The translations under genes and the position numbers were made by a program. The notes under the pieces were generated by a model. The model was not told the origin of the DNA. It did not search any database and worked only from the letters and a program-made list of their open reading frames with translations. Positions 7,967-58,464 of a stretch of 64,000 nt of DNA are shown piece by piece; positions within the stretch are counted from its first letter, which is position 1, and each line of letters starts with the position of its first letter. Source of the DNA: an uncultured Oscillospiraceae bacterium (GTDB lineage Bacteria > Bacillota > Clostridia > Oscillospirales > Oscillospiraceae); the NCBI GenBank assembly GCA_944386975.1, contig CALXDC010000004.1, positions 31,766 to 95,765 on the forward strand, in the 5' to 3' direction.

Positions 7967-8521
7967 GTGGAACTGACGCCTATGCGGTATAAGACCTTTG
8001 TCTGGCCCCACAATCCCCACACCTACTCCATCTCCTTTCAGCGGCTGGTGGCGGGACACAAGGTGCCATACGGGCGCTACTGCCTTCAGGATCTGGGGCT
8101 GACAGCCCGGGTGCTGGAGGGGGAGGGGGTTTTTGCCGGAGAGGGGGCCTATGACCAGTTCAAGGAACTGGCCACCCTCTTCTACAGCGGCGGACCGGGG
8201 CTGCTGATTCATCCGGTGTGGCAGCCCTCCAGCGCCTACTTCACAGAGCTCTCCCTGACCCAGAAGCCTCTGCCGGACTATGTGGCCTACCGTTTTGCTT
8301 TCCGGGAGGACTCCTCCCGCAGCCGCACCGGCCTGACCCTGCTGTCGGCGGCAGAGAAGGAGACGGCGGCGGAGACCATCTACACGGTGAGCCAGGGGGA
8401 CACCCTCTGGGCCGTGGCGGCCCGGTACGGCGTGACCCTGGAGGCCCTGCTGGCGGCCAACCCCGCCATCGCCAATCCCAACCGCATCCAGGTGGGACAG
8501 AAGGTGGTGATTCCGGGGTGA
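7967..8521 (+). CDS. LysM-containing tail protein (XkdP-like)
   Basis: A 184-residue protein with an N-terminal XkdP/gpX-like domain (DNA circulation-like fold) and a C-terminal LysM domain at about residues 138-183 beginning YTVSQGDTLWAVAARYGV and ending QVGQKVVIPG. It probably binds peptidoglycan and helps assemble the baseplate hub. The start is GTG with GAGGAGGAG upstream. The TGA overlaps the GTG of the hub gene. Confidence 0.75.
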   Translation: MELTPMRYKTFVWPHNPHTYSISFQRLVAGHKVPYGRYCLQDLGLTARVLEGEGVFAGEGAYDQFKELATLFYSGGPGLLIHPVWQPSSAYFTELSLTQKPLPDYVAYRFAFREDSSRSRTGLTLLSAAEKETAAETIYTVSQGDTLWAVAARYGVTLEALLAANPAIANPNRIQVGQKVVIPG

Positions 8522-9474
8522 CCATTCAGCTGATCACCTGCGACGGTCAGGTCTACCTGGCCCCCACGGTAATGGAGTGGCGGCTGTGCCGCACCGGCGG
8601 CGTGCCCTGCGACGATCTGGAGGCGGTGTGCCTGTTTGACGGGCTGCTGCTAGATGTTCTGTCCCGGGCCTGCCGCTTTGCCGCCTACCAGGGGGATACC
8701 CTGGTGCTGCGGGGCGTGGTGGACGAGTACCGGGCGGAGGTGTCGGAAAAGGGACGGCTGCTCACCCTCTCCGGCCGGGGCATGGCGGCGCTGCTGCTGG
8801 ACAACGAGGCGGAGGCGGCGGAGTACCAGGGGGCCACTGTGGAGGAGATTCTCCGCAACCACGCCGTCCCATGGGGAATCTCCCTGGGGGAGTGCCGGTC
8901 CCTCCGCTGCGCCGGGGTCTATCGGGTGGACAGCGGCAGCAGCCAGTGGCAGGCCCTCAGCGGCTTTGTCCGCTATGTGGGAGGCTTTCTTCCCTGGTTT
9001 GCCGCCGACGGTACCCTGCAGGTCTGTCCCATGGCAGGCAGCGGCGCTCACCGGAGCGTCGACGCCGCCGCGGCGGTGACGGACTGTTCCGTCCGATTCA
9101 CCCGCTACGGGGTGATCTCGGAGATGCTGGTGAAGGATAAAACCCGGCAGACCTCCCAGCGGGTGGTGAATCAGGCGTTCCTGGACCTGGGAGGCAGCCG
9201 GCGGCAGGTGCTCTACACCCCCGGCGTCAGTACCCTGGCGGCCATGCGGTACACCGGAGAGTATCAGATCCGGCGAAGCATGGAAGGAAAGCGCCAGGTG
9301 GAGCTGACGGTGGCCGGAGCCTTTGCCGCCCAGCCCGGGGACGTGGCTTGGGTGACCTACGATCCCCTGAGACTGGCAGGGGACTATGATGTGGTGGAGG
9401 CGGAGAGCCGGGGCGGCAGCACCGGCGAGACCACCACCCTGACCTTGGAGGCGAGAGACCATGTGGATATCTGA
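8518..9474 (+). CDS. baseplate hub protein (XkdQ / gpD-like)
   Basis: A 318-residue protein matching late-control gpD/XkdQ hub proteins, which form the ring through which DNA passes and to which the spike attaches. The beta-rich N-terminal region contains GVVDEYRAEVSEKGRLLTLSG-type strands, and the C-terminal half contains YTGEYQIRRSMEGKRQVELT. The GTG at 8518 overlaps the LysM stop. The end overlaps the spike gene by 14 bases. Confidence 0.7.
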   Translation: MTIQLITCDGQVYLAPTVMEWRLCRTGGVPCDDLEAVCLFDGLLLDVLSRACRFAAYQGDTLVLRGVVDEYRAEVSEKGRLLTLSGRGMAALLLDNEAEAAEYQGATVEEILRNHAVPWGISLGECRSLRCAGVYRVDSGSSQWQALSGFVRYVGGFLPWFAADGTLQVCPMAGSGAHRSVDAAAAVTDCSVRFTRYGVISEMLVKDKTRQTSQRVVNQAFLDLGGSRRQVLYTPGVSTLAAMRYTGEYQIRRSMEGKRQVELTVAGAFAAQPGDVAWVTYDPLRLAGDYDVVEAESRGGSTGETTTLTLEARDHVDI

Positions 9475-9844
9475 AAAAATGCGGGAATCCTCCGACTGCG
9501 CCGCCGCCAATGCCGGTATCGCCACCATCGGCGGTGCGCCGGCGGCGGTGGAGACCTGCGGCGAGGAGCGGGATCTCCCCGTCTACGCCCCCGGCGGCAT
9601 GACCTGGCGGCCCCGGGCCGGGGATACGGTGCTGGTTTTGAAGGGAGGCACCGGCGGAGAGGAGCGGTATGTCATTGCTGCCGCCTCCGATGAAAATAAC
9701 AACTTGGCACCCGGGGAGTTGGAATTGACTGCGGGAGACAGCTCTGTCCGGCTGCGGCTGGACGGGAGTATTGAGCTGAGAGGACAGGTGGAAATCACGG
9801 GGACGCTGCTTCTCAACGGAGTGCCGCTGATCCCCCTGGTCTGA
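9461..9844 (+). CDS. baseplate spike / assembly protein (XkdR-gpV-like)
   Basis: A 127-residue protein with an OB-fold-like region (MTWRPRAGDTVLVLKGG, EERYVIAAASDENNNL) and a short repeated beta segment (SVRLRLDGSIELRGQVEIT) resembling the beta-helix tip of gpV/gp5 spikes. It would form the membrane-puncturing tip. It is short compared with gpV (about 210 residues). The gene starts within the hub gene. Confidence 0.6.
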   Translation: MWISEKMRESSDCAAANAGIATIGGAPAAVETCGEERDLPVYAPGGMTWRPRAGDTVLVLKGGTGGEERYVIAAASDENNNLAPGELELTAGDSSVRLRLDGSIELRGQVEITGTLLLNGVPLIPLV

Positions 9845-9859
9845 AGAGAGGAGAATCAT

Positions 9860-10210
9860 ATGGAACTGCTGCTGCGGGAGGGAGAGTATGTGGCGGACGG
9901 CCGGGGCGGCGTGGTCCGCCTGGAGGGGGAGGAGGCCCTGCTGGGGCGGGTCCTCTTCCGCCTTACCGCCCGGCGGGGCGGGCTGCCGCTGCTGCCGGAG
10001 CTGGGCAGCCGGTTATATCTGCTGGGCCGGGAGGGGCCCGAGGGGCGGCTCTCCGCCGCCCGGCAGTATGTGGCCGAGGCTTTGGCGGAGGAGGATGTGA
10101 CCGTGGAGTCGGTGGAGTTGGAGCAGGGAGCGGCGGGGACGCTGCAGCTGCGGGCGTACCTCCTCCACGGCGAAGCTGCCGTGACGGCGGAAGTGACCAT
10201 ATCCATATAA
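9860..10210 (+). CDS. baseplate wedge protein, gp25/XkdS-like
   Basis: A 116-residue protein with the gp25-like pattern: an LLGRVLFRLTARRGGLPLLP segment and an RQYVAEALAEEDVTVESVEL helix-strand. These proteins tie sheath to baseplate and are placed just before baseplate J in contractile systems, as here. GAGAGGAGAA precedes the ATG. Confidence 0.7.
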   Translation: MELLLREGEYVADGRGGVVRLEGEEALLGRVLFRLTARRGGLPLLPELGSRLYLLGREGPEGRLSAARQYVAEALAEEDVTVESVELEQGAAGTLQLRAYLLHGEAAVTAEVTISI

Positions 10211-10223
10211 AGGGAGAGTGACG

Positions 10224-11285
10224 ATGCTGAAAACCTTGGAGGAGATCTATCAGGAGATGCTGGACATTTTCGCCCGGCAGTCCGGCTATCGGCCCCACGC
10301 CGCCTGCGATCTGGCCGCCCGGCTCTATGCCGCCGCCGCCCAGGTCCAGGCTCTGTATGTCCAGATTGCCTGGACGCTGGACCAGAGCTTTCCCCAGACG
10401 GCCCAGGGGGAGTTTCTGGACTACCACGGGGAGACCCGGAATATCACCCGGGTGGCTGCCACTGCCGCGGAGGGGATCCTCCGCTTCTCTGTGGATCAGG
10501 CGGTGAGCCAGCCCCTCAACGTCCCGGCGGGCACCGTGTGCATGACCGCTACCGGGGTGCGGTATGAGACCCTGGAGGATGGAGCTATTGCGCCGGGGGA
10601 GCTGTGGGTCGATATAGCGGCCCGGGCGGTGGAGGCCGGGGAGAGCGGCAACGCGGGGACCGACAGAGTGGTGGTGATGGCGGTGGCCCCGGCAGGGGTG
10701 GCCCGGTGCACCAATCCCAAGCCCTTTACCGGCGGGGCGGACCGGGAGGACGACGAGGCCCTCCGGGCCAGAATTCTGGACAGCTACCGGCGGCTACCCA
10801 ACGGGGCCAACGCCGCCTACTACGAACAGGAGGCCATGGGCTTTGCCGGAGTGGCGGCAGCCAAGGCGGTGGGCAGACCACGGGGCATCGGTACCGTGGA
10901 TGTGTACATTGCCGCCGCCTCCGGCCTTCCGGAAGAGGCGCTGCGCCAGGCGGTGGAGGAGACTCTCCAGAAAAGCCGGGAGATCGCCGTGGATCTTCGG
11001 GTCCTGGCCCCCACCCTGTATCCTGTGGCGGTGACCGCAGCGGTGGCGGCGGCGGAGGGCTATACCTTCGCCCAGGCCAAGGCCGACGCTGAGGATGCCC
11101 TGGCGGGCTTTTTCGGCGGCCATCTCCTGGGGGAGGCAGTGACTCTGGCGGGATTGGGGCATTTGCTCTACTCCCTTGACAGCGTGGCCAACTACCGCTT
11201 CACCGCTCCGGCGGCAGATGTGGCTGCCCTGCCCTCCCGGCTGCCCTCCCTGGGGACGGTGACCATTACGGAGATGGGAGGCTGA
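10224..11285 (+). CDS. baseplate J protein (XkdT-like)
   Basis: A 353-residue baseplate wedge protein. The pattern GEFLDYHGETRNITR, then GTVCMTATGVRYET, then DREDDEALRARILDSYRRLPNGANAAYYEQEA is typical of the baseplate J family. I chose the ATG at 10224 with AGGGAG seven bases upstream; the GTG six bases earlier overlaps that site. It ends one base before the next gene. Confidence 0.85.
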   Translation: MLKTLEEIYQEMLDIFARQSGYRPHAACDLAARLYAAAAQVQALYVQIAWTLDQSFPQTAQGEFLDYHGETRNITRVAATAAEGILRFSVDQAVSQPLNVPAGTVCMTATGVRYETLEDGAIAPGELWVDIAARAVEAGESGNAGTDRVVVMAVAPAGVARCTNPKPFTGGADREDDEALRARILDSYRRLPNGANAAYYEQEAMGFAGVAAAKAVGRPRGIGTVDVYIAAASGLPEEALRQAVEETLQKSREIAVDLRVLAPTLYPVAVTAAVAAAEGYTFAQAKADAEDALAGFFGGHLLGEAVTLAGLGHLLYSLDSVANYRFTAPAADVAALPSRLPSLGTVTITEMGG

Positions 11286-11286
11286 G

Positions 11287-11853
11287 ATGGGATACGGCGC
11301 ATATTTGCAGGAGCTGCTGCGTCCCCTGGGGGTGTATGACCTGCGGGTGGGAAGCCTTAGCGCCAGTGAGCTGGAGGCCATGGGGGCAGGGCTGGACGGC
11401 GCGGAGGCGGCGGCGGATCTGGCTCAACGGGAGTGCATCACTGCTACGGCGGAGGAGGAGGGGCTTTCCCGGCGGGAGAGCCTTTTTGTTCACCGGCCCG
11501 TTCAGGTCAGTATTCCTCTCCGCCGGGAGGCCATCCATGCCCTTTTGCAGATCAGCAGCGACAGCTTCACCCTGGAGGCCGTCAACCGGGCTATCCAGGG
11601 CTGCGGCATCAAGGCGGAGGCCCAGGAGACGGAGCAGTGGGGCCACATCCGGGTGATCTTTCCCAATGTGGCAGGGATTCCCCAGGATTTCGATCAGATC
11701 CGGCAGGTGATTCTGGATATCATTCCCTGCCATCTGGAGACGGAGTTCTACTTCCGCTATCTCACCTGGGCGGAGCTGGAGGCCAGGGGTTGGACCTGGG
11801 CGGATATTCACCAGGCGGGTTATACCTGGTATACACTGGAATTGGCGGTGTGA
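11287..11853 (+). CDS. XkdU-like baseplate protein (DUF2313)
   Basis: A 188-residue protein following baseplate J, the position and size of XkdU/YmfQ. The motif LLRPLGVYDL near the start and HLETEFYFRYLTWAELEARGWTW-type ending match this family. In other phages it joins wedge to tail fibre. No fibre gene follows. Confidence 0.7.
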   Translation: MGYGAYLQELLRPLGVYDLRVGSLSASELEAMGAGLDGAEAAADLAQRECITATAEEEGLSRRESLFVHRPVQVSIPLRREAIHALLQISSDSFTLEAVNRAIQGCGIKAEAQETEQWGHIRVIFPNVAGIPQDFDQIRQVILDIIPCHLETEFYFRYLTWAELEARGWTWADIHQAGYTWYTLELAV

Positions 11854-11858
11854 GCGCA

Positions 11859-12158
11859 ATGGAAGAGACGACGGCGGTGAAGCTGACGGAGACCGACTCC
11901 AGGGCCCGGTCCAATACCCGGCGCATCGAACAGCTGGAGCGGGGACAGGAGATGCTGACCCATATCGCCACCTCTGTGGAGGTGCTGGTCAGCGAGCAGC
12001 GCCATCTGCGGGAGGAGCTGGAGAACCTTACAAAAAAGGTGGATGTGCTGGAGCAGAAGCCCGGCCAGCGCTGGGAGACGGTGGTGGACAAGGCGCTGCT
12101 GATGGCGGTGGGCGCGCTGGTGGGGTTTGTTCTGGTGCAACTGGGATTGCAGCTATAG
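11859..12158 (+). CDS. XhlA-like coiled-coil membrane protein
   Basis: A 99-residue protein with a heptad-rich middle (residues 20-65, with EQLERGQEMLTHI and LREELENLTKKVDVLEQ) and one C-terminal membrane helix (ALLMAVGALVGFVLVQLGL). This is the layout of XhlA, which helps holin and endolysin lyse cells in PBSX. I chose the ATG at 11859, six bases after the previous stop. No separate XhlB-type holin is seen. Confidence 0.7.
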   Translation: MEETTAVKLTETDSRARSNTRRIEQLERGQEMLTHIATSVEVLVSEQRHLREELENLTKKVDVLEQKPGQRWETVVDKALLMAVGALVGFVLVQLGLQL

Positions 12159-12219
12159 GAGCGGTGCATAGAATAGACGGGCGGTATTGCCGCCCAAAAC
12201 CAAAGAGAGGGGGATCCCT

Positions 12220-17757: not shown

Positions 17758-17796
17758 CTACCAAGAAGAAGTCAAATGAACGAAAGGAGTCCCCCT

Positions 17797-18216
17797 ATGC
17801 CTACCCTTGACCAGATCCGGGCCTGCTTCTCCGGCGACCGATTCGCCACCGAGGCCGCCGGCGTCACCATCGATGTGGCGGAGCCCGGCCATGCCGTCTG
17901 CTCCATGCCCATCCGCCCCGTCCACCTCAACGCCAACTCCGTCCCTATGGGGGGCGCCATCTTCACCCTGGCGGACTTCGCCTTTGCTGTGGCCGCCAAC
18001 GGCCACAGCACCCAGGTCACCGTCACCCAGCAGGTGTCCGTCACGTTTCTCTCCGCATCCCGGGGCAAAACCCTGATCGCCGAGGCCAGGTGCCTGAAGG
18101 CCGGGCGGGCCACCTGCCTTTACACCGTGGACGTTACCGACGAGCTGGGGGCTCAGGTAGCCCACCTTACCGTCAATGGTTTTACCTTGCCCTCCAGAGA
18201 AAAATCCGAAAAATAA
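17797..18216 (+). CDS. hotdog-fold PaaI-type acyl-CoA thioesterase
   Basis: A 139-residue hotdog protein that hydrolyses acyl- or aryl-CoA thioesters. The family pattern is visible: LNANSVPMGGAIFTLADFAFAVAANGH contains the substrate-binding Asn and Gly-Gly and the helix acid (Asp), followed by VTVTQQVSVTFL strands. I start it at 17797, seven bases after GAAAGGAG; an ATG at 17776 includes the ribosome site and is less likely. It has its own promoter but sits just upstream of the aromatic-acid module, so it may recycle stalled arylacetyl-CoA. That link is inference. Confidence 0.8.
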   Translation: MPTLDQIRACFSGDRFATEAAGVTIDVAEPGHAVCSMPIRPVHLNANSVPMGGAIFTLADFAFAVAANGHSTQVTVTQQVSVTFLSASRGKTLIAEARCLKAGRATCLYTVDVTDELGAQVAHLTVNGFTLPSREKSEK

Positions 18217-18230
18217 TAAAGAAACCCCTC

Positions 18231-18259
18231 TTGACTTTAGCGCTTAAAAGTGATAGAGT
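18231..18259 (+). promoter_or_regulatory. promoter of the Tyr T-box transcript
   Basis: TTGACT, 17-bp spacer and TAGAGT. The -35, most of the spacer and the -10 are nearly identical to those of the second T-box promoter at 21999. It fixes the transcript start near 18266. Confidence 0.75.
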
Positions 18260-18265
18260 GTACAC

Positions 18266-18537
18266 CGTTGATACCAAACGCCATGACGGAGCCAAGTAGG
18301 CCCGGACCGCCCCCTTCAGAGACCTGCCGGTTGGTGCAAGGCAGGAGGGGTCCCGGCGCCCAATACCCTCCCGAGCGGCCCGCTGAACGGGAATTTCTCC
18401 AGTAGGCGGCGACGGGTGCGCCCGATAGCGCGCGGGGAGCCTTTTTCCGGGCTCCGTGAGGCCGCCCTTGGCGGTAAATTGAGGTGGTACCACGGGATTT
18501 TCTCGTCCTCTGCTTTGGCAGAGGACGATTTTTTTGT
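18266..18537 (+). promoter_or_regulatory. T-box riboswitch, specifier TAC (tyrosine)
   Basis: The leader has T-box hallmarks in order: ATGACGGAGCCAAGTAG, TTCAGAGACCTGCCGG with GGTGCAAGGCAGG, a specifier-loop segment CAATACCCTCCCGAGCGG, AGTAGGCGGCGACGGG (stem III area), and the tRNA-acceptor-binding antiterminator sequence GAGGTGGTACCACGGG, then a terminator. Aligning the specifier segment on the conserved GAG six bases downstream puts codon TAC at 18364-18366, so the ligand is uncharged tRNA-Tyr. Such leaders read through when the tRNA is uncharged. It controls the CoA ligase and probably the symporter. Confidence 0.85.
18504..18537 (+). terminator. T-box-controlled terminator (Tyr leader)
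   Basis: Stem CGTCCTCTGC paired with its complement around TTTG, followed by A and a run of T residues. It competes with the antiterminator that contains GGTGGTACCACGG. Confidence 0.85.
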
Positions 18538-18567: not shown

Positions 18568-20205
18568 ATGGTCATTACGGATTTTCTGGAACGAAATGCC
18601 CGACTCTACCGGGATGAGATCGCCCTGGTGGAGATCAATCCCTCCGAGGAGCGGGACAGCGCCGTCACCTGGCGGGAGTTCAGCCTCATTGAGCGCAACC
18701 GGCCCGACGAGCCCTATCGCCGTGAGATGACCTGGAGTCACTTCGACAAGAAAGCCAACCGCTTTGCCAACCTTCTCCTCAGCCGGGGCATCCAGCGGGG
18801 GGCCAAGGTGGGGATTCTGCTGATGAACTGCCTGGAGTGGCTGCCCATCTACTTCGGCATTCTGAAGGCGGGTTGCCTGGCGGTGCCCCTCAACTTCCGC
18901 TACTCCAGCGAGGAGATCCGCTACTGTCTGGACCTGGCGGACGTGGAGGTGCTGGTGCTGGGGCCGGAGTTTGTGGACCGGATCGACCCCATTCTGCCGG
19001 ACCTGGGGCGTGTGAAAATGATGTTCTATGTGGGCAAGCAGGTGCCTCCCTTCGCTGAGAGCTACCAGCGGCTCATGAGCTTCTGCTCCTGGGAGGCCCC
19101 TCCGGTCCACCTGGAGCCCAGCGACCACGCCGCCATCTACTTCTCCTCCGGCACCACCGGTTTCCCCAAGGCCATTCTCCACAACCACAAGGCCCTCTTC
19201 TCCTCCTGCCTCACCGAGCAGCACCACCACGGACAGACCCGGGACGACGTGTTCCTCTGCATCCCGCCTCTCTACCATACCGGGGCCAAGATGCACTGGT
19301 TCGGCTCTCTGGCCAGCGCCAGCAAGGCGGTGCTCCTCCGGGGCGTGTCGCCGGAGTGGATCCTCCGGGCGGTCACCGAGGAGAAGTGCACCATCGTCTG
19401 GCTGCTGGTGCCCTGGGCCCAGGACATCCTGGACGCCATCGAGAGCGGCCGGGTGAAGCTCAGCGACTACTACTTAGACCAGTGGCGGCTCATGCATATC
19501 GGCGCCCAGCCGGTGCCCCCCAGCCTCATCCACCGCTGGAAAAAGATCTTCCCCCACCACCAGTACGACACCAACTACGGCCTCTCCGAGTCTATCGGTC
19601 CCGGCTGCGTCCATCTGGGGGTGGAGAATATCCACAAGGTGGGCGCCATCGGCAAGCCCGGCTATCTGTGGGACGCCCGGGTGGTGGACGAGCACGGAGA
19701 CGACGTGCCCCAGGGCGAGGTAGGGGAGCTGGCGGTGAAGGGCCCCGGCGTGATGCTCTGCTACTACAAGAACCCTCAGGCCACCGAGGAGATTCTCAAA
19801 GGCGACTGGCTCTTCACCGGCGACATGGCCCGGGTGGATGAGGACGGCTTCATCTATCTGGTGGACCGGAAGAAGGACGTGATCATCTCCGGCGGCGAGA
19901 ATCTCTACCCCGTCCAGATCGAGGACTTCCTGCGCAAAAACGACAAGATCAAGGACGTGGCGGTCATCGGTCTTCCCGACAAGCGCCTGGGTGAGATTGC
20001 CGCGGCCATCATTGAGATCAAGGAGGACATGTCCTGCACCGAGGAGGAGATCAACGACTTCTGCAGGGAGCTGCCCCGGTACAAGCGGCCGAGGAAGATC
20101 ATCTTCGACAAGGTGCCCCGGAATCCCACCGGCAAGATCGAGAAGCCGGTGCTCCGGGAGCGGTATTGCAGCGGCCGCCTGGTGGAGGTCCAGAACAACA
20201 GCTGA
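18568..20205 (+). CDS. AMP-forming acyl/aryl-CoA ligase
   Basis: Class I adenylate-forming enzyme: carboxylate + ATP + CoA to acyl-CoA + AMP + PPi. The 545-residue protein has the P-loop YFSSGTTGFPKA, the NYGLSES motif, the GDW-LFTGDMARVDEDGFIYLVDRKKD hinge and the catalytic lysine motif NPTGKIEKP near the C-terminus. The ATG follows GAAAAGGAGAG. A Tyr T-box sits directly upstream, so 4-hydroxyphenylacetate or a related aryl acid is a plausible substrate; long- or medium-chain fatty acids cannot be excluded from sequence. The next gene, a symporter, would supply the acid. Confidence 0.85.
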   Translation: MVITDFLERNARLYRDEIALVEINPSEERDSAVTWREFSLIERNRPDEPYRREMTWSHFDKKANRFANLLLSRGIQRGAKVGILLMNCLEWLPIYFGILKAGCLAVPLNFRYSSEEIRYCLDLADVEVLVLGPEFVDRIDPILPDLGRVKMMFYVGKQVPPFAESYQRLMSFCSWEAPPVHLEPSDHAAIYFSSGTTGFPKAILHNHKALFSSCLTEQHHHGQTRDDVFLCIPPLYHTGAKMHWFGSLASASKAVLLRGVSPEWILRAVTEEKCTIVWLLVPWAQDILDAIESGRVKLSDYYLDQWRLMHIGAQPVPPSLIHRWKKIFPHHQYDTNYGLSESIGPGCVHLGVENIHKVGAIGKPGYLWDARVVDEHGDDVPQGEVGELAVKGPGVMLCYYKNPQATEEILKGDWLFTGDMARVDEDGFIYLVDRKKDVIISGGENLYPVQIEDFLRKNDKIKDVAVIGLPDKRLGEIAAAIIEIKEDMSCTEEEINDFCRELPRYKRPRKIIFDKVPRNPTGKIEKPVLRERYCSGRLVEVQNNS

Positions 20206-20371: not shown

Positions 20372-21961
20372 ATGGGAGATATGGCCATCAAACTTTCTAT
20401 GCTGGTGGTATTTTTTGCGGTGATGGTGGGCATCGGCCTCTACTGCCGCCGCCACGCAACCGACGTCAACGGCTTTGTTCTGGGCGGCCGGTCCGTAGGC
20501 CCCTGGCTCACTGCCTTCGCCTATGGTACCAGCTACTTTTCCGCTGTGGTCTTCGTGGGCTATGCGGGACAGTTTGGGTGGAAGTACGGCATCGCCGCCA
20601 CCTGGGCGGGCCTGGGGAATGCTTTTTTGGGGTCGCTGCTGGCTTGGGCCGTTCTGGGCCGCCGGACCCGGGTCATGACCCAGCATCTGGACAGCGCCAC
20701 CATGCCGGAATTTTTTGGTAAGCGCTTTGACAGCCGCTCCCTGAAGCTGATCGCCTCTGTCATCATCTTCATCTTTCTTATCCCCTACACCGCCAGCCTC
20801 TACAACGGCCTCAGCCGTCTGTTTGCCATGGCCTTCGACATCGACTACGCCGTCTGCGTGGTGGTGATGGCGGTGCTCACCGGCGTTTACGTCATCGCGG
20901 GAGGCTACATGGCTACCGCCATCAACGACTTTATTCAGGGCCTTATCATGCTGGTGGGCATCTGCGCCGTCATCGGCGCAGTGCTGAAGAGTCAGGGAGG
21001 CTTCCTGGCCGCTCTGGACGGGCTTGCCCGGGTCTATGACCCCGCCACCTCCGAGACGCCGGGCGTCTTCGCCTCCTTCTTCGGTCCCGACCCGGTAGGG
21101 CTTTTGGGTGTGGTGCTTCTCACAAGCCTTGGCACCTGGGGCCTTCCCCAGATGGTCCAGAAGTTCTACGCCATCAAAAGTGAGAAGTCCATCAACACCG
21201 GCATGGTGGTTTCCACCGCCTTCGCCGTGGTGGTGGCCGGCGGGTGCTACTTCCTGGGCGGCTTCGGCCGGTTGTTTTCCACCCCAGAGGCGGTGAGCGC
21301 CGCCGGGTACGACTCCATCATCCCCACCATGCTCTCCGGCCTGCCCACCATTCTCATCGCCGTGGTGGTGATTCTGGTGCTCTCCGCATCCATGTCCACT
21401 CTCAGCTCTCTGGTGCTGGCCTCCAGCTCCACCCTGACCCTGGATTTCATCAAGGGGAACATCATCAAGGAGATGGACGAGAAGCGGCAGGTGCGGTGGA
21501 TGCGGGCCCTGGTGGTGGTGTTCATCGCCATCAGTGTGGTACTGGCTATCATCCAGTACCGCTCCAGCATCACCTTCATTGCCCAGCTCATGGGCGTCTC
21601 CTGGGGCGCCCTGGCCGGGGCCTTCCTGGCTCCCTTCCTCTACGGTCTTTACTGGAAGGGTACCACCAAGGCTGCCTGCGCCGCCAGCTTTCTCTTCTCC
21701 ACGGTGGTGATGCTCTGCAACATCTTTTTCGGCAGTTTCTTCCCCACTGTGCTCCAGTCCCCCATTAACTGCGGCGCCTTCTGCATGCTGGCGGGCCTTG
21801 TCATTGTCCCGGCGGTGAGCCTTGTCAGCCGCGCCCCCGCCGAGGCGCGGATGGAGGAGATTTTCGCCTGCTATGAGCGGACCGTCACCGTCACGGTGAA
21901 GGATTCCATCGGCCGCCAGGGGGAGGTCCGCCGCCCCCGGAACAAGAAGCGGAAGCGCTGA
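20372..21961 (+). CDS. sodium:solute symporter family (SSS) transporter
   Basis: A 529-residue membrane protein of the SSS family (PutP/PanF/ActP relatives), with about 13 hydrophobic segments. Family features include GGRSVGPWLTAFAYGTSYFSA near residues 38-56, the IAGGYMATAINDFIQG segment, LGTWGLPQMVQKFYA, and a conserved Ser-rich ASMSTLSSLVLASSS helix for sodium binding. ATG at 20372 has GAGAGGAAAC upstream. The gap from the CoA ligase is 166 bases with no clear terminator, so the Tyr T-box probably governs both. Substrate is not readable from sequence; an aryl or short organic acid fits the context. Confidence 0.85.
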   Translation: MGDMAIKLSMLVVFFAVMVGIGLYCRRHATDVNGFVLGGRSVGPWLTAFAYGTSYFSAVVFVGYAGQFGWKYGIAATWAGLGNAFLGSLLAWAVLGRRTRVMTQHLDSATMPEFFGKRFDSRSLKLIASVIIFIFLIPYTASLYNGLSRLFAMAFDIDYAVCVVVMAVLTGVYVIAGGYMATAINDFIQGLIMLVGICAVIGAVLKSQGGFLAALDGLARVYDPATSETPGVFASFFGPDPVGLLGVVLLTSLGTWGLPQMVQKFYAIKSEKSINTGMVVSTAFAVVVAGGCYFLGGFGRLFSTPEAVSAAGYDSIIPTMLSGLPTILIAVVVILVLSASMSTLSSLVLASSSTLTLDFIKGNIIKEMDEKRQVRWMRALVVVFIAISVVLAIIQYRSSITFIAQLMGVSWGALAGAFLAPFLYGLYWKGTTKAACAASFLFSTVVMLCNIFFGSFFPTVLQSPINCGAFCMLAGLVIVPAVSLVSRAPAEARMEEIFACYERTVTVTVKDSIGRQGEVRRPRNKKRKR

Positions 21962-21998: not shown

Positions 21999-22027
21999 TT
22001 GACTTTAGCGGATAAAAGTGATAGAGT
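21999..22027 (+). promoter_or_regulatory. promoter of the Phe T-box operon
   Basis: TTGACT, 17-bp spacer and TAGAGT, 38 bases after the symporter stop. It shares 27 of 29 positions with the Tyr T-box promoter at 18231. Confidence 0.75.
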
Positions 22028-22033
22028 TGATTT

Positions 22034-22312
22034 CGTTGATACCAAAAACGCGATGACGGAACCAAGTAGGGACCCCATCGCCCCCTTCAGAGAGCTGCCG
22101 GACGGTGCGAGGCAGAGAGGGCGTCCTTCCCGAATTCCTTCCTGAGCGGCCTGCCGAACCGGGGCCATCCCCGTTGTAAGCAGCGACGGGGGCGCCCGAT
22201 ATAGCGCCGGGGATATGCTCGTATCCCATGAGGCCGCAAATGCGGTAAACTGAGGTGGTACCACGGGAATTTCTCGTCCTCTGCAAGAATCTTCTTGCAG
22301 AGGACTTTTTTA
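22034..22312 (+). promoter_or_regulatory. T-box riboswitch, specifier TTC (phenylalanine)
   Basis: A second, closely related T-box leader: GATGACGGAACCAAGTAG, TTCAGAGAGCTGCCGG with GGTGCGAGGCAG, specifier segment GAATTCCTTCCTGAGCGG, a stem III region, then GAGGTGGTACCACGGG and a terminator. The same alignment that gives TAC in the first leader gives TTC at 22135-22137 here, so uncharged tRNA-Phe is the predicted ligand. It precedes iorA-iorB-crcB-paaK-ACT-aminotransferase, all on the same strand with short gaps. Confidence 0.88.
22276..22312 (+). terminator. T-box-controlled terminator (Phe leader)
   Basis: A perfect 14-bp stem (GTCCTCTGCAAGAA with its complement) around a two-base loop, followed by seven T residues. 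Confidence 0.88.
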
Positions 22313-22396
22313 TTACCCTGAGAAGTTGAGAAGCAAAACAATAGCCCCGGATCCCTCCCATTGAGGAGAGGGCGGGCGCGAGAAGGAGGATATCTG

Positions 22397-24136
22397 ATGA
22401 AAACCCTGATGCTTGGCAACGAGGCCGCCGCCCGGGGCCTCTACGAGGCGGGCTGTGCCTTTGTCTCCAGCTATCCCGGCACTCCCAGTACGGAGATCAC
22501 CGAGACCATCGCCAAATATCCGGAGGTCTACGCTGAGTGGGCTCCCAACGAGAAGGTGGCCATGGAGAGCGCCTTCGGCGCGTGTCTGGCCGGAAAGCGG
22601 AGCTTCTGCGGCATGAAGCATGTAGGTCTCAACGTGGCCGCCGATCCCCTCTTCACCATCTCCTACACCGGCGTCAACGCCGGCATGGTCATTGCCGTGG
22701 CTGACGACGCGGGCATGCACAGCTCCCAGAACGAGCAGGACTCCCGCCACTACGCCCGGGCTGCCAAGATGCCCATGCTGGAGCCCGCCGACAGCGGCGA
22801 GGCGTTGGAGATGGCCAAGCTGGCCTATGAGATCTCCGAGCAGTTCGACACGGCGGTGCTCCTCAAGATGTGCACCCGCATTGCCCACTCCCAGAGCGTG
22901 GTGGAGCCCGGCGAGCGCATCACGCCTCCGGAAAAGCCCTATGAGAAGAATGGGGCCAAGTACATCATGATGCCCGGCAACGCCAAGCGCCGCCACCCGG
23001 TGGTGGAGGAGCGGACGAAGGCCCTCATCGCCTACGCTGAGACCTCCCCCCTCAACCGCGTGGAGGAGGGCAGGGACAAGTCCATCGGCATCATCACCTC
23101 CTCCACCAGCTATCAGTATGTGAAGGAGGCCCTGGGAGACACCTATCCCGTTTTGAAGCTGGGCATGATCTGGCCTATGCCGGAGAAGAAGATCCTCGAC
23201 TTCGCCGCCTCCGTGGAGAAGCTGGTGGTGGTGGAGGAGCTGGACGGCTTCATTGAGAACCACTGCAAGGAGCTGGGCCTGCAGGCGGAGGGCAAGAACC
23301 TCTTCTCCTGCATCGACGAGCTCAATCAGAACATCGTGGCGGAGAAGCTGGGCAAGGCCCCCGACGTGGGCGTGAAGCTTGACGACGCCATCCCCGCCCG
23401 TCCCCCGGTGATGTGCGCCGGATGCCCCCACCGCGGTCTCTTCTACACTCTGAGCAAGCTGAAGCTCACGGTGCTGGGCGACATCGGCTGCTACACCCTG
23501 GGCGCGGTGGCCCCCCTGGCCGCTATCGACACCACCATCTGCATGGGCGCCTCCGTCTCCGGCCTCCACGGCTTCAACAAAGCCAGCGGCGGCGAGATGG
23601 AAGGCAAGACCGTGGCCGTCATCGGCGACAGTACCTTCATGCACTCCGGCGTCACGGGCCTTATCAACATCGCCTACAACGAGTCCAACTCCACCGTTAT
23701 CATTCTCGACAACTCCATCACCGGTATGACCGGCCACCAGCAGAACCCCACCACCGGCTACAACCTGAAGGGGGATCCCTGCACCAAGATTGATTTGGAG
23801 AGCCTCTGCCGGAGCGTGGGCATCCGGCGGGTCCGGGTGGTGGACCCCTACAACCTGAAGGAGTGCGAGGAGGCTGTGAAGGAGGAGCTGGCGGCGGCGG
23901 AGCCCTCCGTCATCATCTCCCGCCGTCCCTGCGCCCTGCTGAAGTACGTCAAGCACAAGGCGCCTCTTACGGCGAACCCCGACAAGTGCGTGGGCTGCAA
24001 GAGCTGCATGAGGATCGGCTGCCCCGCCATCTCCATCGTGGACGGCAAGGCCCGGATCGACAACACCCTGTGCGTGGGCTGCGGCGTGTGCCAGCAGCTG
24101 TGCAAGTTCGACGCCCTCGAGGCGCTCCAGGCGTAA
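22397..24136 (+). CDS. iorA: indolepyruvate ferredoxin oxidoreductase, alpha subunit
   Basis: Thiamine-diphosphate and iron-sulfur enzyme interconverting aryl-pyruvates with aryl-acetyl-CoA, CO2 and reduced ferredoxin. The 579-residue protein has the pyrimidine-binding domain at the start (SSYPGTPSTEITETIA), the ThDP/Mg region GDIGCYTLGAVAPL and GDSTFMHSG ... NSITGMTG, and a C-terminal double 4Fe-4S domain: Cys 531, 534, 537, 542 and 559, 562, 565, 569. AAGGAGG precedes the ATG. It is first in the Phe T-box operon. The reaction is reversible; T-box control argues for use in the carboxylating (Phe-making) direction. Confidence 0.92.
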   Translation: MKTLMLGNEAAARGLYEAGCAFVSSYPGTPSTEITETIAKYPEVYAEWAPNEKVAMESAFGACLAGKRSFCGMKHVGLNVAADPLFTISYTGVNAGMVIAVADDAGMHSSQNEQDSRHYARAAKMPMLEPADSGEALEMAKLAYEISEQFDTAVLLKMCTRIAHSQSVVEPGERITPPEKPYEKNGAKYIMMPGNAKRRHPVVEERTKALIAYAETSPLNRVEEGRDKSIGIITSSTSYQYVKEALGDTYPVLKLGMIWPMPEKKILDFAASVEKLVVVEELDGFIENHCKELGLQAEGKNLFSCIDELNQNIVAEKLGKAPDVGVKLDDAIPARPPVMCAGCPHRGLFYTLSKLKLTVLGDIGCYTLGAVAPLAAIDTTICMGASVSGLHGFNKASGGEMEGKTVAVIGDSTFMHSGVTGLINIAYNESNSTVIILDNSITGMTGHQQNPTTGYNLKGDPCTKIDLESLCRSVGIRRVRVVDPYNLKECEEAVKEELAAAEPSVIISRRPCALLKYVKHKAPLTANPDKCVGCKSCMRIGCPAISIVDGKARIDNTLCVGCGVCQQLCKFDALEALQA

Positions 24137-24148
24137 GGAGGTACGGAA

Positions 24149-24721
24149 ATGGAAACGAAAAACATCATGATCGTCGGCGTGGGAGGCCAGGGCACCCTGT
24201 TGGCCAGCAAGCTCCTGGGCCGTCTGCTCCTGGACAAGGGCTACGACGTGAAGGTCTCCGAGGTCCACGGCATGTCCCAGCGGGGCGGCAGCGTGGTCAC
24301 CTACGTCCGCTTCGGCGACAAGGTCTACTCCCCCATCATCGACAAGGGGGAGGCGGACTTCATCGTCTCCTTCGAGCTGCTGGAGGCCGCCCGGTGGACG
24401 GAGTATCTCAAAAAGGGCGGCAAAATCGTCACCAACACCCAGCAGATGAACCCCATGCCCGTCATCACCGGCGCGGCGGCGTATCCCCAGGAGCTGGCGG
24501 AGAAGATGGCCGCCGCCGGCATGGACGTGGACGCCTTTGACGCCCTGGCGCTGGCCCAGGAGGCCGGCAGCAGCAAGGCGGTGAACATTGTCCTCATGGG
24601 CCGCCTCAGCCGCTACTTCGACATCTCCGAGGAGGAGTGGCACGCCGCCATCGCCAAGAGCGTGCCGGAGAAGTTCCTGGAGATGAACCAGAAGGCCTTC
24701 ACCCTGGGCCGCCAGGCGTAA
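24149..24721 (+). CDS. iorB: indolepyruvate ferredoxin oxidoreductase, beta subunit
   Basis: A 190-residue gamma-type domain of 2-oxoacid:ferredoxin oxidoreductases that partners IorA. Recognised from the N-terminal GVGGQGTLLASKLLGRLLLDKG and the SEVHGMSQRGGSVVTYVRFG segment that is diagnostic for this subunit. It starts 12 bases after iorA behind AAGGAGG, and ends three bases before crcB. Confidence 0.92.
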   Translation: METKNIMIVGVGGQGTLLASKLLGRLLLDKGYDVKVSEVHGMSQRGGSVVTYVRFGDKVYSPIIDKGEADFIVSFELLEAARWTEYLKKGGKIVTNTQQMNPMPVITGAAAYPQELAEKMAAAGMDVDAFDALALAQEAGSSKAVNIVLMGRLSRYFDISEEEWHAAIAKSVPEKFLEMNQKAFTLGRQA

Positions 24722-24724
24722 GGC

Positions 24725-25096
24725 ATGGGCGGTTTTCTGGCCGTGGGGCTGGGGGGCGGCGTGGGGGCCATGGGCCGCTATGCCCTGAGCCTCCTGCCCT
24801 ACCAAGGGACCTTTCCTCTTCTGACCTTCCTCACCAACCTTTTGGGCGCGGTACTCATTGGCTTTATCACAGGCCTTGCAGGCCGGGAGCGCCTCAGCAG
24901 CGGCTGGACCCTCTTCTGGAAGACCGGCGTCTGCGGCGGCTTCACCACCTTCTCCACCTTTTCTCTGGAGAGCATCACCCTGCTGGAGAAGGGCCGGTAT
25001 GCCCTGGGTGGGTTGTACATGGTCCTCAGCGTAGGCCTTTGCCTGATCGGAATCCTTCTGGGCCGACGGCTCAGTCAGTTTGCTTTTCCCGTTTAA
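24725..25096 (+). CDS. crcB: CrcB/Fluc fluoride channel
   Basis: A 123-residue four-helix membrane protein. It matches the Fluc family: GGGVGAMGRY near the start, FLTNLLGAVLIGFITG with the pore Asn, and GVCGGFTTFSTFSLES with the conserved Phe/Thr track. A single copy is present, so it would act as a homodimer. It starts three bases after iorB, leaving no room for a fluoride riboswitch. Its place inside an aromatic-acid operon is unexpected. The start lacks a strong ribosome site and may depend on coupling. Confidence 0.85.
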   Translation: MGGFLAVGLGGGVGAMGRYALSLLPYQGTFPLLTFLTNLLGAVLIGFITGLAGRERLSSGWTLFWKTGVCGGFTTFSTFSLESITLLEKGRYALGGLYMVLSVGLCLIGILLGRRLSQFAFPV

Positions 25097-25131
25097 TTTC
25101 ATTCCATACACAATGAAAGGAACCGTTTTTC

Positions 25132-26433
25132 ATGGAACGCTACTATCAGCCTGAGATCGAATGCGCCAGCCGGGAGCAGATTCTCGCCTGGCAGAATGAG
25201 CGCCTTGTCAAGCAGGTGCAGAACGTGTGGGACAATGTCCCCTACTACCGGGCCAAGATGGAGGCCAAGGGCCTCACCCCCGCCGACATCAAGGGCGTGG
25301 AGGACCTCCACAAGCTGCCCTTCGTCACCAAGGACGACCTGCGGGAGGCCTATCCCTACGGGCTGGTGGCCCGGCCCCTGAAGGACTGCGTCCGCATCCA
25401 GTCCACCTCCGGCACCACCGGCAAGCGGGTGGTGGCCTTCTACACCCAGCACGACATCGACCTCTGGGAGGACTGCTGCGCCCGTGCCATCATGGCCGCC
25501 GGCGGCACCAACGAGGACGTCTGCCAGGTGAGCTACGGCTACGGCCTCTTCACCGGCGGTCCCGGCCTCAACGGCGGCAGCCACAAGGTGGGCTGCCTCA
25601 CCATCCCAACCTCCTCCGGCAACACCGAGCGGCAGATCATGTTCATTCGTGATCTCTCCGCCACCATCCTCTGCTGCACCCCCTCCTATGCCGCCTACAT
25701 CGGTGAGACCATGAAGGAGATGGGTCTCACCCCCGACCAGATCCCCCTGAAAGCGGGCATCTTCGGTGCGGAGGCCTGGAGCGAGGAGATGCGCCAGGAC
25801 ATTCAGAATACCCTGGGCATCAAGGCCTACGACATCTATGGCCTCACGGAGCTGTCCGGCCCCGGCGTCTCCTTCGAGTGCTCCGAGCAGACCGGTATGC
25901 ACATCAACGAGGACCACTTCATCGCCGAGATTATCGACCCGGACACCGGGGAGGTGCTGCCTGAGGGCAGCCAGGGCGAGCTGGTGTTTACCTCCATCAC
26001 CAAGGAGGCCTTCCCCCTGCTGCGCTACCGCACCCGTGACATCTGCGTCCTCAGCCGCAAGCCCTGTTCCTGCGGCCGGACCCATGTGAAGATGTGCAAG
26101 CCCAGAGGCCGCAGCGACGATATGCTCATCATCAAGGGCGTCAACGTCTTCCCGTCCCAGATCGAGGCGGTGCTGCTGGAGCAGGGCTACGCCGCCAACT
26201 ACCAGATCATCGTGGACCGTGTCAACAACACCGACACCCTGGAGGTCCAGGTGGAGATGACGCCGGAGATGTTCTCCGATCAGCTCAGCGCCGTGGCCGA
26301 CAAGGAGAAGCAGCTGGTGGCCGCTCTGAAGGCCATGCTGGGCATCTACGCAAAGGTCCGTCTGGTGGCCCCCAAGTCCATTCAGCGCAGCGAGGGCAAG
26401 GCGGTCCGCGTCATCGACAAGCGGAAGATCTGA
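25132..26433 (+). CDS. paaK: phenylacetate-CoA ligase
   Basis: AMP-forming ligase making phenylacetyl-CoA from phenylacetate, ATP and CoA. The 433-residue length and motifs fit PaaK: YYQPEIECASREQI start, the P-loop QSTSGTTGKRVV, YGLTELSGPGVSFEC, the RTRD hinge, and the C-terminal EGKAVRVIDKR with the catalytic lysine. It lies in the operon with iorAB, which use the same thioester. In arylacetate-using anaerobes this trio converts phenylacetate to phenylpyruvate; run the other way, it would ferment phenylalanine. AAAGGAACC precedes the ATG. Confidence 0.92.
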   Translation: MERYYQPEIECASREQILAWQNERLVKQVQNVWDNVPYYRAKMEAKGLTPADIKGVEDLHKLPFVTKDDLREAYPYGLVARPLKDCVRIQSTSGTTGKRVVAFYTQHDIDLWEDCCARAIMAAGGTNEDVCQVSYGYGLFTGGPGLNGGSHKVGCLTIPTSSGNTERQIMFIRDLSATILCCTPSYAAYIGETMKEMGLTPDQIPLKAGIFGAEAWSEEMRQDIQNTLGIKAYDIYGLTELSGPGVSFECSEQTGMHINEDHFIAEIIDPDTGEVLPEGSQGELVFTSITKEAFPLLRYRTRDICVLSRKPCSCGRTHVKMCKPRGRSDDMLIIKGVNVFPSQIEAVLLEQGYAANYQIIVDRVNNTDTLEVQVEMTPEMFSDQLSAVADKEKQLVAALKAMLGIYAKVRLVAPKSIQRSEGKAVRVIDKRKI

Positions 26434-26457
26434 CTGAGAAGAGAGGAGTTTGCTGCT

Positions 26458-26889
26458 ATGACCATTCAACAAATTTCCGTATTTCTGGAGAACCGGGCGG
26501 GACAGCTGGCGGAGATCACCAGCGTGCTGGCCAAGAACAATATCGACCTGCGGGCCATCCACATCGCCGAGACCACGGATTACGGCGTGCTGCGCATCAT
26601 CGCCGACCGGGCCCAGGACGCGGCCAACGTCCTTCTGAACAACGGCTTCATCCTCTCCATGACCCCTGTGGTGGCCGCCGCGGTGCCTGACCGGCCCGGC
26701 GGGCTGGCCCAGCTGCTGGCGGTGCTGGCCCAGGCGGATATGGACATCGAGTACATGTACTCCATGTTCGGCCGGGGCGACGGCCTGGCCTATATGGTGT
26801 TCCGGGTGAAGGACGCCGAGCAGCTGGAGGCCATCCTCCGCTCCCACGGGGTGAACCCCGCCGCCGGGGCGGACCTGGGCCTCAACTGA
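26458..26889 (+). CDS. tandem ACT-domain protein
   Basis: A 143-residue protein made of two ACT domains (about 1-70 and 71-140), seen from two copies of the strand-loop signature: ISVFLENRAGQLAEITSVLA and AAVPDRPGGLAQLLAVLA. No catalytic domain is attached. Such stand-alone proteins follow paaK in many anaerobes and are thought to sense an amino acid. Here Phe or Tyr is the likely ligand, and PaaK or IorAB the likely partner; both are inference. GAGAGGAG lies upstream. Confidence 0.85.
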   Translation: MTIQQISVFLENRAGQLAEITSVLAKNNIDLRAIHIAETTDYGVLRIIADRAQDAANVLLNNGFILSMTPVVAAAVPDRPGGLAQLLAVLAQADMDIEYMYSMFGRGDGLAYMVFRVKDAEQLEAILRSHGVNPAAGADLGLN

Positions 26890-26920
26890 GACCACGACAC
26901 AAAGAAAGAAGGTTTTCCAC

Positions 26921-28087
26921 ATGCAGGAACTGAGCAGAAAGAACAAGCTGTTTACCGATTCCGTCATCCGCCGGATGACCCGGATCGCCATCGCCAACAA
27001 CGCCATCAACCTGGCCCAGGGCTTCCCCGACTTTGATCCCCCCAAGGAGATGATGGACCGCCTGGAGGAGGTCAGCCATCTGGGCCCCCACCAGTACCCC
27101 ATCACCATGGGCGCCCCCAACTTCCGCCAGGCCCTGGCCCGCAAGTGCGGCCGCTTCATGGGCCGGACCTTGGACCCGGAGACGGAGATCGTGGTGACCA
27201 TCGGCTCCACCGAGGCCATGGTGGACACCATCTTTGCCCTCACCAACCCCGGGGACAAGATCATCATGTTCTCCCCCTACTTTGAGAACTACCGTGCCCA
27301 GGCCATCTTCGCCGACTGCGAGCCGGTGTTCGTCCCCCTGAACCCCCCGGAGTTCAACTTCGATCCCAACGTCCTGGAGGACGCTTTCAAGCAGGGGGCC
27401 AAGGCCATTCTCATCTGCAACCCCTCCAACCCCAGCGGCAAGGTGTTCACCTATGACGAGCTGAAGCTCATCGCCGACCTGTGCGTCAAGTACGACGTGT
27501 ACGCCATCATGGACGAGGTGTACGAGCACATCATCTACGATGGCCACAAGCACATCTATATGAACAGCCTCCCCGGCATGTGGGAGCGGACGGTGAGCTG
27601 CTCCAGCCTCTCCAAGACCTACTCCGTCACCGGCTGGCGCCTGGGCTACGCCATTGCCCCGGAGCCCATCATGGAGCGGATCAAGCAGTACCACGACTTC
27701 AACACCGTGGGCGCCCCCTCCCCCCTGATGGAGGCCGCCGTGGTGGGTCTCGACATGCCGGACAGCTACTATGAGGAGTTCGGCGCCCACTATGCCCACA
27801 TGAAGAAGCTGTTCACCGACGGCCTCAAGCGCATCGGCATCCCCTTCACCGATCCTCAGGGCGCCTACTTCGTCCTGGCCAACATCGGGCCCTATATGAA
27901 GAAGGGTCAGAGCGACGTGGAGTTCTGCGAGGAGATGACCAAGAAGGTGGGTGTGGCCTGCGTGCCCGGTACCTCCTTCTTCATGGAGGATGTGAACGAC
28001 ATCGTCCGCGTCCACTTCGCCAAGAAGGATGAGACCCTCATCGAAGCCCTCAACCGCCTGGAGGATATCAAGACCAAGATGGCGTAA
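26921..28087 (+). CDS. PLP-dependent class I/II aminotransferase (aromatic or aspartate type)
   Basis: A 388-residue fold-type I aminotransferase. Visible features are NLAQGFPDFDPP near the start, ICNPSNPSGKVF, the DEVYEHIIYDG PLP-ring Asp/Tyr motif, and the Schiff-base lysine in CSSLSKTYSVTGWRLGY. It ends the Phe T-box operon, so it probably converts phenylpyruvate (and hydroxyphenylpyruvate) to the amino acid with Glu or another donor. Close relatives act on aspartate or kynurenine, and sequence alone does not separate these. AAGAAAGAAGG is upstream. Confidence 0.85.
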   Translation: MQELSRKNKLFTDSVIRRMTRIAIANNAINLAQGFPDFDPPKEMMDRLEEVSHLGPHQYPITMGAPNFRQALARKCGRFMGRTLDPETEIVVTIGSTEAMVDTIFALTNPGDKIIMFSPYFENYRAQAIFADCEPVFVPLNPPEFNFDPNVLEDAFKQGAKAILICNPSNPSGKVFTYDELKLIADLCVKYDVYAIMDEVYEHIIYDGHKHIYMNSLPGMWERTVSCSSLSKTYSVTGWRLGYAIAPEPIMERIKQYHDFNTVGAPSPLMEAAVVGLDMPDSYYEEFGAHYAHMKKLFTDGLKRIGIPFTDPQGAYFVLANIGPYMKKGQSDVEFCEEMTKKVGVACVPGTSFFMEDVNDIVRVHFAKKDETLIEALNRLEDIKTKMA

Positions 28088-28092
28088 GCCGC

Positions 28093-28134
28093 AAAAAGAG
28101 CCTCTGCCGCATTGCTTCGGCAGAGGCTCTTTTC
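28093..28134 (+). terminator. bidirectional terminator
   Basis: A perfect 16-bp stem (AAAAGAGCCTCTGCCG with its complement) around an eight-base loop, with A and T tracts on both sides. It lies between the aminotransferase and the convergent hydrolase gene and would serve both. Confidence 0.88.
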
Positions 28135-58357: not shown

Positions 58358-58464
58358 TGGTAGAGTAAGTGTAACGCGTAAAGTGGCAAGTGGCTGGGAA
58401 GTCGCCCTTGCACGAAAGGCCCCCGGGAAATCGGGCCTACGGTGTTGCACTGCATCCGCTACCG
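58358..58464 (+). promoter_or_regulatory. tetrahydrofolate (THF) riboswitch
   Basis: The sequence follows the THF (folT) riboswitch consensus closely: GGTAGAGTA at the 5' side, ACGCGTAAAGTG, GGCTGGGAAGTCG, a CACGAAAG segment, and GCATCCGCTACC closing P1 on the 3' side. The stem pairing GGTAG with CTACC closes the aptamer. It precedes a terminator and folT, so excess folate would stop transcription of the folate importer. Confidence 0.88.

Follow-up and report, generated by a model that had tools for sequence, protein, structure and literature searches.

A 64,000-nucleotide stretch of the genome of an uncultured Oscillospiraceae bacterium (contig CALXDC010000004.1, positions 31,766 to 95,765; hereafter the window, with positions counted from its first letter) carries two neighboring transcription units that are each preceded by a T-box riboswitch. 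We consider it very probable that these two tRNA-controlled transcripts serve the salvage of phenylalanine and tyrosine, through arylacetate uptake, activation by CoA, reductive carboxylation and transamination, beside de novo synthesis. A Tyr T-box precedes an AMP-forming ligase and a symporter, and a Phe T-box precedes iorA, iorB, crcB, paaK, an ACT-domain gene and an aminotransferase gene, IorAB being an indolepyruvate:ferredoxin oxidoreductase (IOR). A first-pass annotation of this DNA had described the second unit as a Phe-specific salvage operon. Our analysis supports its interpretation and finds its observation right; the interpretation is, however, widened, as it covers Tyr as well as Phe and has a counterpart for Trp in a further IOR clade. 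It is also narrowed: in this genome the route is read as a salvage parallel to synthesis and not as an obligate one.

Both leaders, like the genes, promoter-like sites and hairpins of this cluster, lie on the forward strand. The Phe leader (22044..22284) matches the T-box model RF00230 over model positions 1-219 of 219 with 98.5 bits (cut-off 93, E 1.8e-20), and the covariance alignment places TTC (22135-22137) in the specifier column, where it had been predicted. The Tyr leader (18274..18513; 97.4 bits, same cut-off), which the first-pass annotation did not report, has TAC (18364-18366) in this column; thus, the Phe leader stands but the system as a whole is specific for Phe plus Tyr. Each leader contains a TGGT bulge and a competing terminator: a hairpin followed by a T run at 18503..18528, which overlaps the 3' end of the Tyr-leader antiterminator, and a hairpin of 13 pairs followed by TTTTTT at 22276..22305 (folding of 22240-22320: z = -4.45 against 200 shuffles). 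Promoter-like sites, here TTGACT-17-TAGAGT, are located at 18231..18259 and 21999..22027, directly ahead of the Tyr and Phe leaders, respectively; the region holds seven promoter-like sites where 2.1 are expected. The system's first promoter-like site is the one at 18231, not the one at 21999. Since the two promoter and leader stretches are 77% identical across 291 nt, they look like duplicates with differing specifiers.

The specifier loop of both leaders is one base below the Rfam consensus length, and the shifted readings TCC (Ser) and ACC (Thr) therefore needed excluding. A non-aromatic codon in the specifier, named beforehand as an outcome that would refute the proposal, did not appear in the covariance alignment, and both a calibration within the same genome and the Phe and Tyr codons of relatives agree with it. 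This genome has 13 T-box matches, five of them over the cut-off. Seven of the 13 precede genes for which an expectation exists (as named from our reading of their translations), and all seven read as expected: glyS GGC, pheS TTC, asnB AAC, leuS CTG, thrS ACC, cysE TGC and a TrpB-like gene TGG. The glyS leader shares the loop geometry of the two leaders under study, and TTC and TGGT of the Phe leader recur in the pheS leader (L009). Furthermore, the TGGT bulges call for A73, yet base 73 is G in all four tRNA-Ser genes and T in both tRNA-Thr genes. The bulges of the thrS and glyS T-boxes are TGGA, which fits the T73 of the tRNA-Thr and tRNA-Gly genes that were read and is as expected for a thrS leader. 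The genes of tRNA-Phe and tRNA-Tyr, whose discriminator we take to be A73, were not found in the 90%-complete assembly. The discriminator bases, together with the geometry of the glyS and pheS leaders, led us to reject the Ser and Thr readings, and a misreading by one base, suggested by the short loop, is hardly credible. The six remaining T-boxes are the two leaders under study, three before genes without expectation (L002, L006, L010) and one that reads unexpectedly (L013). The latter (G000:C18:40469-40704; G000 is the window's genome) precedes hisS and reads by eye GAC (Asp), not His, with a TGGC bulge, perhaps in a hisS-aspS operon. L006 (G000:C2:80516-80757; TAC, Tyr, bulge TGGT) precedes an EamA/DMT-type-like gene, a candidate aromatic transporter, and L010 (G000:C12:21199-21396), read by eye as GCC (Ala), precedes a small lipoprotein-like gene, an odd target.

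The gene set that had been proposed behind the Phe leader was confirmed. iorA (22397..24136; TIGR03336 704 bits, cut-off 650.9) and iorB (24149..24721; NF005325 285.5 bits, cut-off 230) encode the alpha and beta subunits of an indolepyruvate (arylpyruvate):ferredoxin oxidoreductase, both over equivalog cut-offs; with another beta model, TIGR03334, IorB scores 196.2 bits, below the 205.8 required. They are followed by the fluoride exporter gene crcB (24725..25096; TIGR00494 91.7 bits, cut-off 80.45) and by a phenylacetate-CoA ligase gene (25132..26433), whose product matches TIGR02155 in full length but below its equivalog cut-off (506.6 bits, cut-off 646.3), and is kept as PaaK-like only; its best solved relative, 4r1l, is named phenylacetate-coenzyme A ligase. 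The last two genes encode a tandem ACT-domain protein (26458..26889; Pfam ACT_8 90 bits, solved relative 2f06), putatively a feedback sensor, and a class I/II aminotransferase (26921..28087; Pfam Aminotran_1_2 215.1 bits), presumably aromatic, whose solved relatives include kynurenine and aromatic aminotransferases. A terminator-like hairpin (28094..28133) closes the operon, in which ligase, IOR and aminotransferase, the gene set of arylacetate reductive carboxylation, are all present. Behind the Tyr leader, the AMP-forming acyl-CoA ligase (18568..20205; Pfam AMP-binding 243.5 bits) is a putative (hydroxy)arylacetate-CoA ligase that no NCBIfam model among those shown matches over its cut-off, and the SSS-family sodium:solute symporter (20372..21961; Pfam SSF 185.1 bits) a putative arylacetate importer. 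Finally, a PaaI-like hotdog thioesterase gene (17776..18216; TIGR00369 53.6 bits, over the cut-off of 36.6; TIGR02286 72.3 bits, below that of 118.9; Pfam 4HBT) lies 5' of the Tyr T-box, probably linked to the cluster and outside T-box control here.

Both window promoters carry inside their spacer a near-palindromic element, TTGACTTTA-N-TAAAAGTG (18231-18252 and 21999-22020), in the forms TTGACTTTAGCGCTTAAAAGTG and TTGACTTTAGCGGATAAAAGTG, respectively. Its strict form occurs 17 times in the window and the fetched IorA loci, each time directly 5' of PaaI, ligase or iorA where positions were compared, and six distinct loci at which no T-box was detected carry it as well (L016, L026, L031, L033, L038, L122). 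A looser pattern gave 17 occurrences, against one in a reversed control, in 14 genomes, many of which were chosen for carrying the element: 12 at the ior cluster, two before DAHP synthase-tyrA (G069, G001) and three elsewhere. The two cases before DAHP synthase-tyrA suggest that the operon is tied to aromatic biosynthesis independently of the T-box. The pattern did not find the element before the DAHP synthase gene of the window's genome. A short leader peptide rich in Phe and Tyr (MDRSLLTKAYYFFFSFTSFF...) is encoded 5' of this gene on contig C16 (L236, minus strand), followed by a hairpin-like stretch and a T run, an arrangement that suggests ribosome-mediated attenuation of the aro operon. 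DAHP synthase is preceded by a clear leader rich in Phe and Tyr in 10 of the 13 surveyed stretches that hold the gene, one more being weak and those of G184 and G307 having none; six further stretches lack a recognized DAHP synthase.

Conservation was examined in two samples. The first consists of the best 80 IorA loci of a species-genome collection in which more exist; neighbors were counted at ≥35% identity over half their length, and some contigs end early, 3.6 kb of upstream sequence being held by 64 of the 80. IorB is a neighbor at 79 of these loci, PaaK at 61, the acyl-CoA ligase at 55, the ACT protein at 47, the symporter at 29, PaaI at 10 and crcB at one. In the second sample, drawn from 150 genomes of the family to which the window belongs, 49 loci carry the same IorA type (58-82% identical) and 24 carry more distant types (38-52%). 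PaaK is found at 32 of the same-type but only two of the distant loci, the ligase at 26 versus none and the ACT protein at 30 versus none; PaaI is present at five and crcB at two of the 49. crcB, whose place in the operon had been correctly described, is thus probably a passenger, being present at so few related loci.

T-boxes were detected by motif scan at 17 loci of the first sample and, in the second, at nine same-type loci (one duplicating a locus of the first) and one distant locus. Including the window and without the duplicate, this amounts to 30 T-boxes at 26 loci, 17 reading Phe, 13 Tyr and none another amino acid, all with a TGGT bulge. Specifiers at related loci were read by eye, and ten leaders from eight family genomes were then aligned by cmscan: all ten are T-boxes (82.0-121.2 bits, nine over the cut-off) with unchanged codons. 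At L069, L074, L080 and L138, the specifier loop is longer and accommodates either TTT or TTC, both of which are Phe codons. In all four clusters with two T-boxes (the window, L014, L129, L135), Tyr is read ahead of the ligase and Phe ahead of iorA. An IorA tree (131 rows, three of them outgroup; quick method) requires at least 19 changes for T-box presence, a figure inflated by undetected T-boxes, and four for the Phe/Tyr state among single-T-box rows; T-box control would therefore have been gained or lost and re-specified repeatedly. The figure of 17 stands after two rows were dropped. In all, the T-box counts leave out L039 (motif at -74 within a coding region), L065 (GTC by eye, 3 kb upstream) and L128 (IorA the same as that of L029), as well as the further motif hits at L029 (+4845), L039 (+4571), L063 (-1803), L066 (-5789) and L074 (+10715). 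At L039, a small coding region resembling TrpR/YerC by eye lies directly 5' of iorA, where others carry the T-box.

These data can be combined into a mechanism. Uncharged tRNA-Tyr at the first leader, or tRNA-Phe at the second, would pair with the specifier and the TGGT bulge, which would stabilize the antiterminator and allow transcription to pass the terminator. The symporter would then import external arylacetates, the two AMP-forming ligases would convert them to arylacetyl-CoA, and IorAB, working reductively with CO2 and reduced ferredoxin, would produce phenylpyruvate or 4-hydroxyphenylpyruvate, from which the aminotransferase would form Phe or Tyr, with the ACT protein as the probable sensor of the product. 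Salvage would cost ATP and reduced ferredoxin. While leaders, specifiers, terminators, gene families and conservation are read from the DNA itself, we infer the direction of flux from regulation and gene content, as well as the substrates of the enzymes, the transport and the role of the ACT protein. Genes of this kind are commonly taken as catabolic. Since in this bacterium and some of its relatives they would be turned on when Phe or Tyr is short, the T-box specifiers suggest that amino acids are rebuilt from arylacetates rather than arylacetates produced. This biosynthetic direction, already favored by the first-pass annotation, is further supported by the two AMP-forming ligases, which favor acyl-CoA synthesis, by the presence of the operon's promoter element ahead of DAHP synthase-tyrA in two genomes, and by relatives in which the T-box operon goes together with absence of pheA, or of pheA as well as tyrA.

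Several observations weigh against this reading. No T-box was detected at 63 of the best 80 loci and 40 of the 49 same-type loci, by a motif scan in which some contigs are short; these counts are upper bounds, since such a scan misses divergent T-boxes. The aminotransferase adjoins the cluster at only eight of the 80 and nine of the 49 loci, and the upstream PaaI-like thioesterase would release arylacetate. PMC13285125 cites a report of the Bacteroides thetaiotaomicron IOR making phenylacetate from Phe. Moreover, the window's genome keeps pheA, tyrA, aroB and aroC, for whose loss the first-pass annotation had advised a check: matches to PDT, chorismate synthase, 3-dehydroquinate synthase and PDH_N are close together on contig C16. 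Absence of pheA and tyrA is thus rejected as the reason for the operon in this genome, where salvage would therefore run beside de novo synthesis and not be obligate. Nor is this IOR type linked to PDT loss, PDT being absent from six of 38 genomes with it and eight of 59 without it (97 near-complete family genomes; Fisher p = 0.77).

Among 31 T-box genomes (26 Phe/Tyr, five Trp), chorismate synthase is over the cut-off in 25, PDH_N in 27 and indole-3-glycerol phosphate synthase (IGPS) in five. Of the 26 Phe/Tyr genomes, 21 have PDT over the cut-off; among the remaining five, two are informative. G184, with a completeness score of 100%, has a Phe T-box before a ligase-iorAB-paaK-ACT run, no PDT match and a retained PDH_N; beside its aroC, a fusion of chorismate mutase with shikimate dehydrogenase and shikimate kinase takes the place of the chorismate mutase-PDT seen in the window's genome. 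G139 (95% complete, Tyr T-box) has no PDT match and a PDH_N match only below the cut-off, elsewhere in the genome, its gene order being DAHP synthase, aroB, aroA, aroC, dehydrogenase-kinase. Two other cases were not used as support: G131 (scored 100% complete, Tyr T-box), in which no aroB or aroC match was found and, unexplained, PDT and PDH_N matches lie side by side in 491-aa open frames (G131:C24:64584-65630, L238), and G025, G027, G040, G041 and G044, which miss aroB and aroC and for which completeness is not given.

The operon might instead be catabolic, Phe and Tyr being transaminated, oxidized by IorAB to arylacetyl-CoA and released as arylacetate by a reversed ligase or the PaaI-like thioesterase. 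IOR relatives do ferment aromatic amino acids in other anaerobes, according to PMC13285125 and PMC13290082, and the PaaI-like gene lies upstream. However, a T-box turns genes on at amino acid scarcity, AMP-forming ligases run toward acyl-CoA, and the operon is kept in relatives without pheA or tyrA. In addition, neither the six genes of the operon nor the ligase-symporter unit was seen to include a phosphotransacylase or kinase, which the oxidative clusters described in the two papers carry. We therefore regard catabolism as improbable. A node working in both directions, with salvage under starvation through the T-box and arylpyruvate oxidation at an ample supply of amino acids or under a need to balance reduced ferredoxin, is consistent with the reversibility of the IOR reaction, with that of every step of the related HPP pathway as stated in PMC13285125, and with a PaaI-like gene outside T-box control. 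Yet with charged tRNA the terminators shut the genes, and expression would therefore be lowest when oxidation is wanted, which leaves this alternative unlikely.

The Tyr T-box unit could also be a separate uptake system, for fatty acids or other compounds, that merely neighbors the Phe operon; among NCBIfam models, its ligase indeed matches best one for long-chain acyl-CoA ligases in general, with a score under the cut-off. Against this, the ligase adjoins this IOR type at 55 of the best 80 and 26 of the 49 loci, frequently lying after one T-box and ahead of iorA within a single gene run, and Phe and Tyr specifiers interchange at the ligase position. Such independence is very improbable, and salvage of both amino acids by the two units is retained as the preferred reading.

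A similar arrangement for tryptophan exists in another IOR clade. The only T-box among the 24 distant IorA loci (L193) has TGG (Trp) and a TGGC bulge, as read by eye from the motif, and precedes iorA, iorB and a PaaK-like gene. When 295 genomes of the order were searched with this IorA, 14 full-length relatives turned up (L194-L207; 55-70% identity), not counting three partial ones (61-64%). In four of the 14, cmscan found a T-box reading TGG directly 5' of iorA (L195 97.4, L194 81.4, L207 78.8 and L206 70.1 bits), one of them over the cut-off; the TGGT bulge of L207 would need a G-U pair with G73. A PaaK-like gene is present at 11 of the 14 loci, within short flanks. At L192, the Trp-clade cluster adjoins a TrpB-like gene that is 86% identical to the one under the Trp T-box in the window's genome (L007, G000:C7). 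In this genome no match to TrpC (IGPS) was found, and Trp may be supplied from indole. In gut Clostridia, arylacetate salvage is probably governed by tRNA charging for Phe, Tyr and Trp alike, with a Phe/Tyr IOR clade whose T-boxes duplicate and switch specificity between lineages and a Trp IOR clade with its own PaaK-like ligase, the IOR-ligase clusters acting as sinks.

Elsewhere in the window, a tetrahydrofolate riboswitch is located at 58359-58463 (72.6 bits, cut-off 36), and open reading frames at about 8200-12200 resemble phage tail and baseplate genes, as judged from translations only.

Phenylacetate, 4-hydroxyphenylacetate and indoleacetate occur in the gut and are investigated for what they do to the host; predictions of which organisms make them draw on IOR-type genes. 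Whether an IOR-ligase cluster makes or consumes arylacetates is disputed: PMC13285125 favors biosynthesis in Bacteroides but cites a report in which the same enzyme leads from Phe to phenylacetate. A genome shows, in the specifier codon, which amino acid such a cluster serves and in which physiological direction, and the question therefore becomes testable by sequence, reporter and tracer. If our reading is true, IOR-ligase clusters taken elsewhere as sources of these three compounds would be sinks in these lineages. A literature search found no paper joining a T-box with indolepyruvate, alone or with phenylacetate, although most subscription papers lay outside it and an earlier report is possible; neither ior nor indolepyruvate occurs in the accessible part of PMC2494555.

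The two leaders belong to the transcriptional antitermination class of T-box riboswitches (RF00230), with which they share a full-length match over the cut-off, a specifier, a TGGN bulge and a terminator; they differ in their target, an IOR-arylacetate ligase operon. Reductive carboxylation of arylacetates occurs in methanogens, Methanococcus included, and in some rumen bacteria. These systems have in common with ours IOR, an acyl-CoA ligase, an aminotransferase and presumably the direction, whereas control by tRNA-Phe and tRNA-Tyr, the clostridial host, the transporter and the ACT protein are particular to the system described here. Reverse IOR activity in Methanobacterium thermoautotrophicum is stated in PMC13285125. 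There, biosynthesis is also argued, from ligase energetics, for a Bacteroides IOR located beside an AMP-forming arylacetate-CoA ligase. The gene pairing is the same as ours, but T-boxes are not mentioned in that paper (0 occurrences), and the direction deduced from energetics is contradicted by the report that it cites. Lastly, the oxidative tyrosine pathway HpdDEFG-HpdJ-HpdK of Clostridium scatologenes, described in PMC13285125, shares the chemistry on (hydroxy)phenylpyruvate, but differs by its VOR-like four-subunit enzyme, its phosphotransferase and kinase and its induction on tyrosine.

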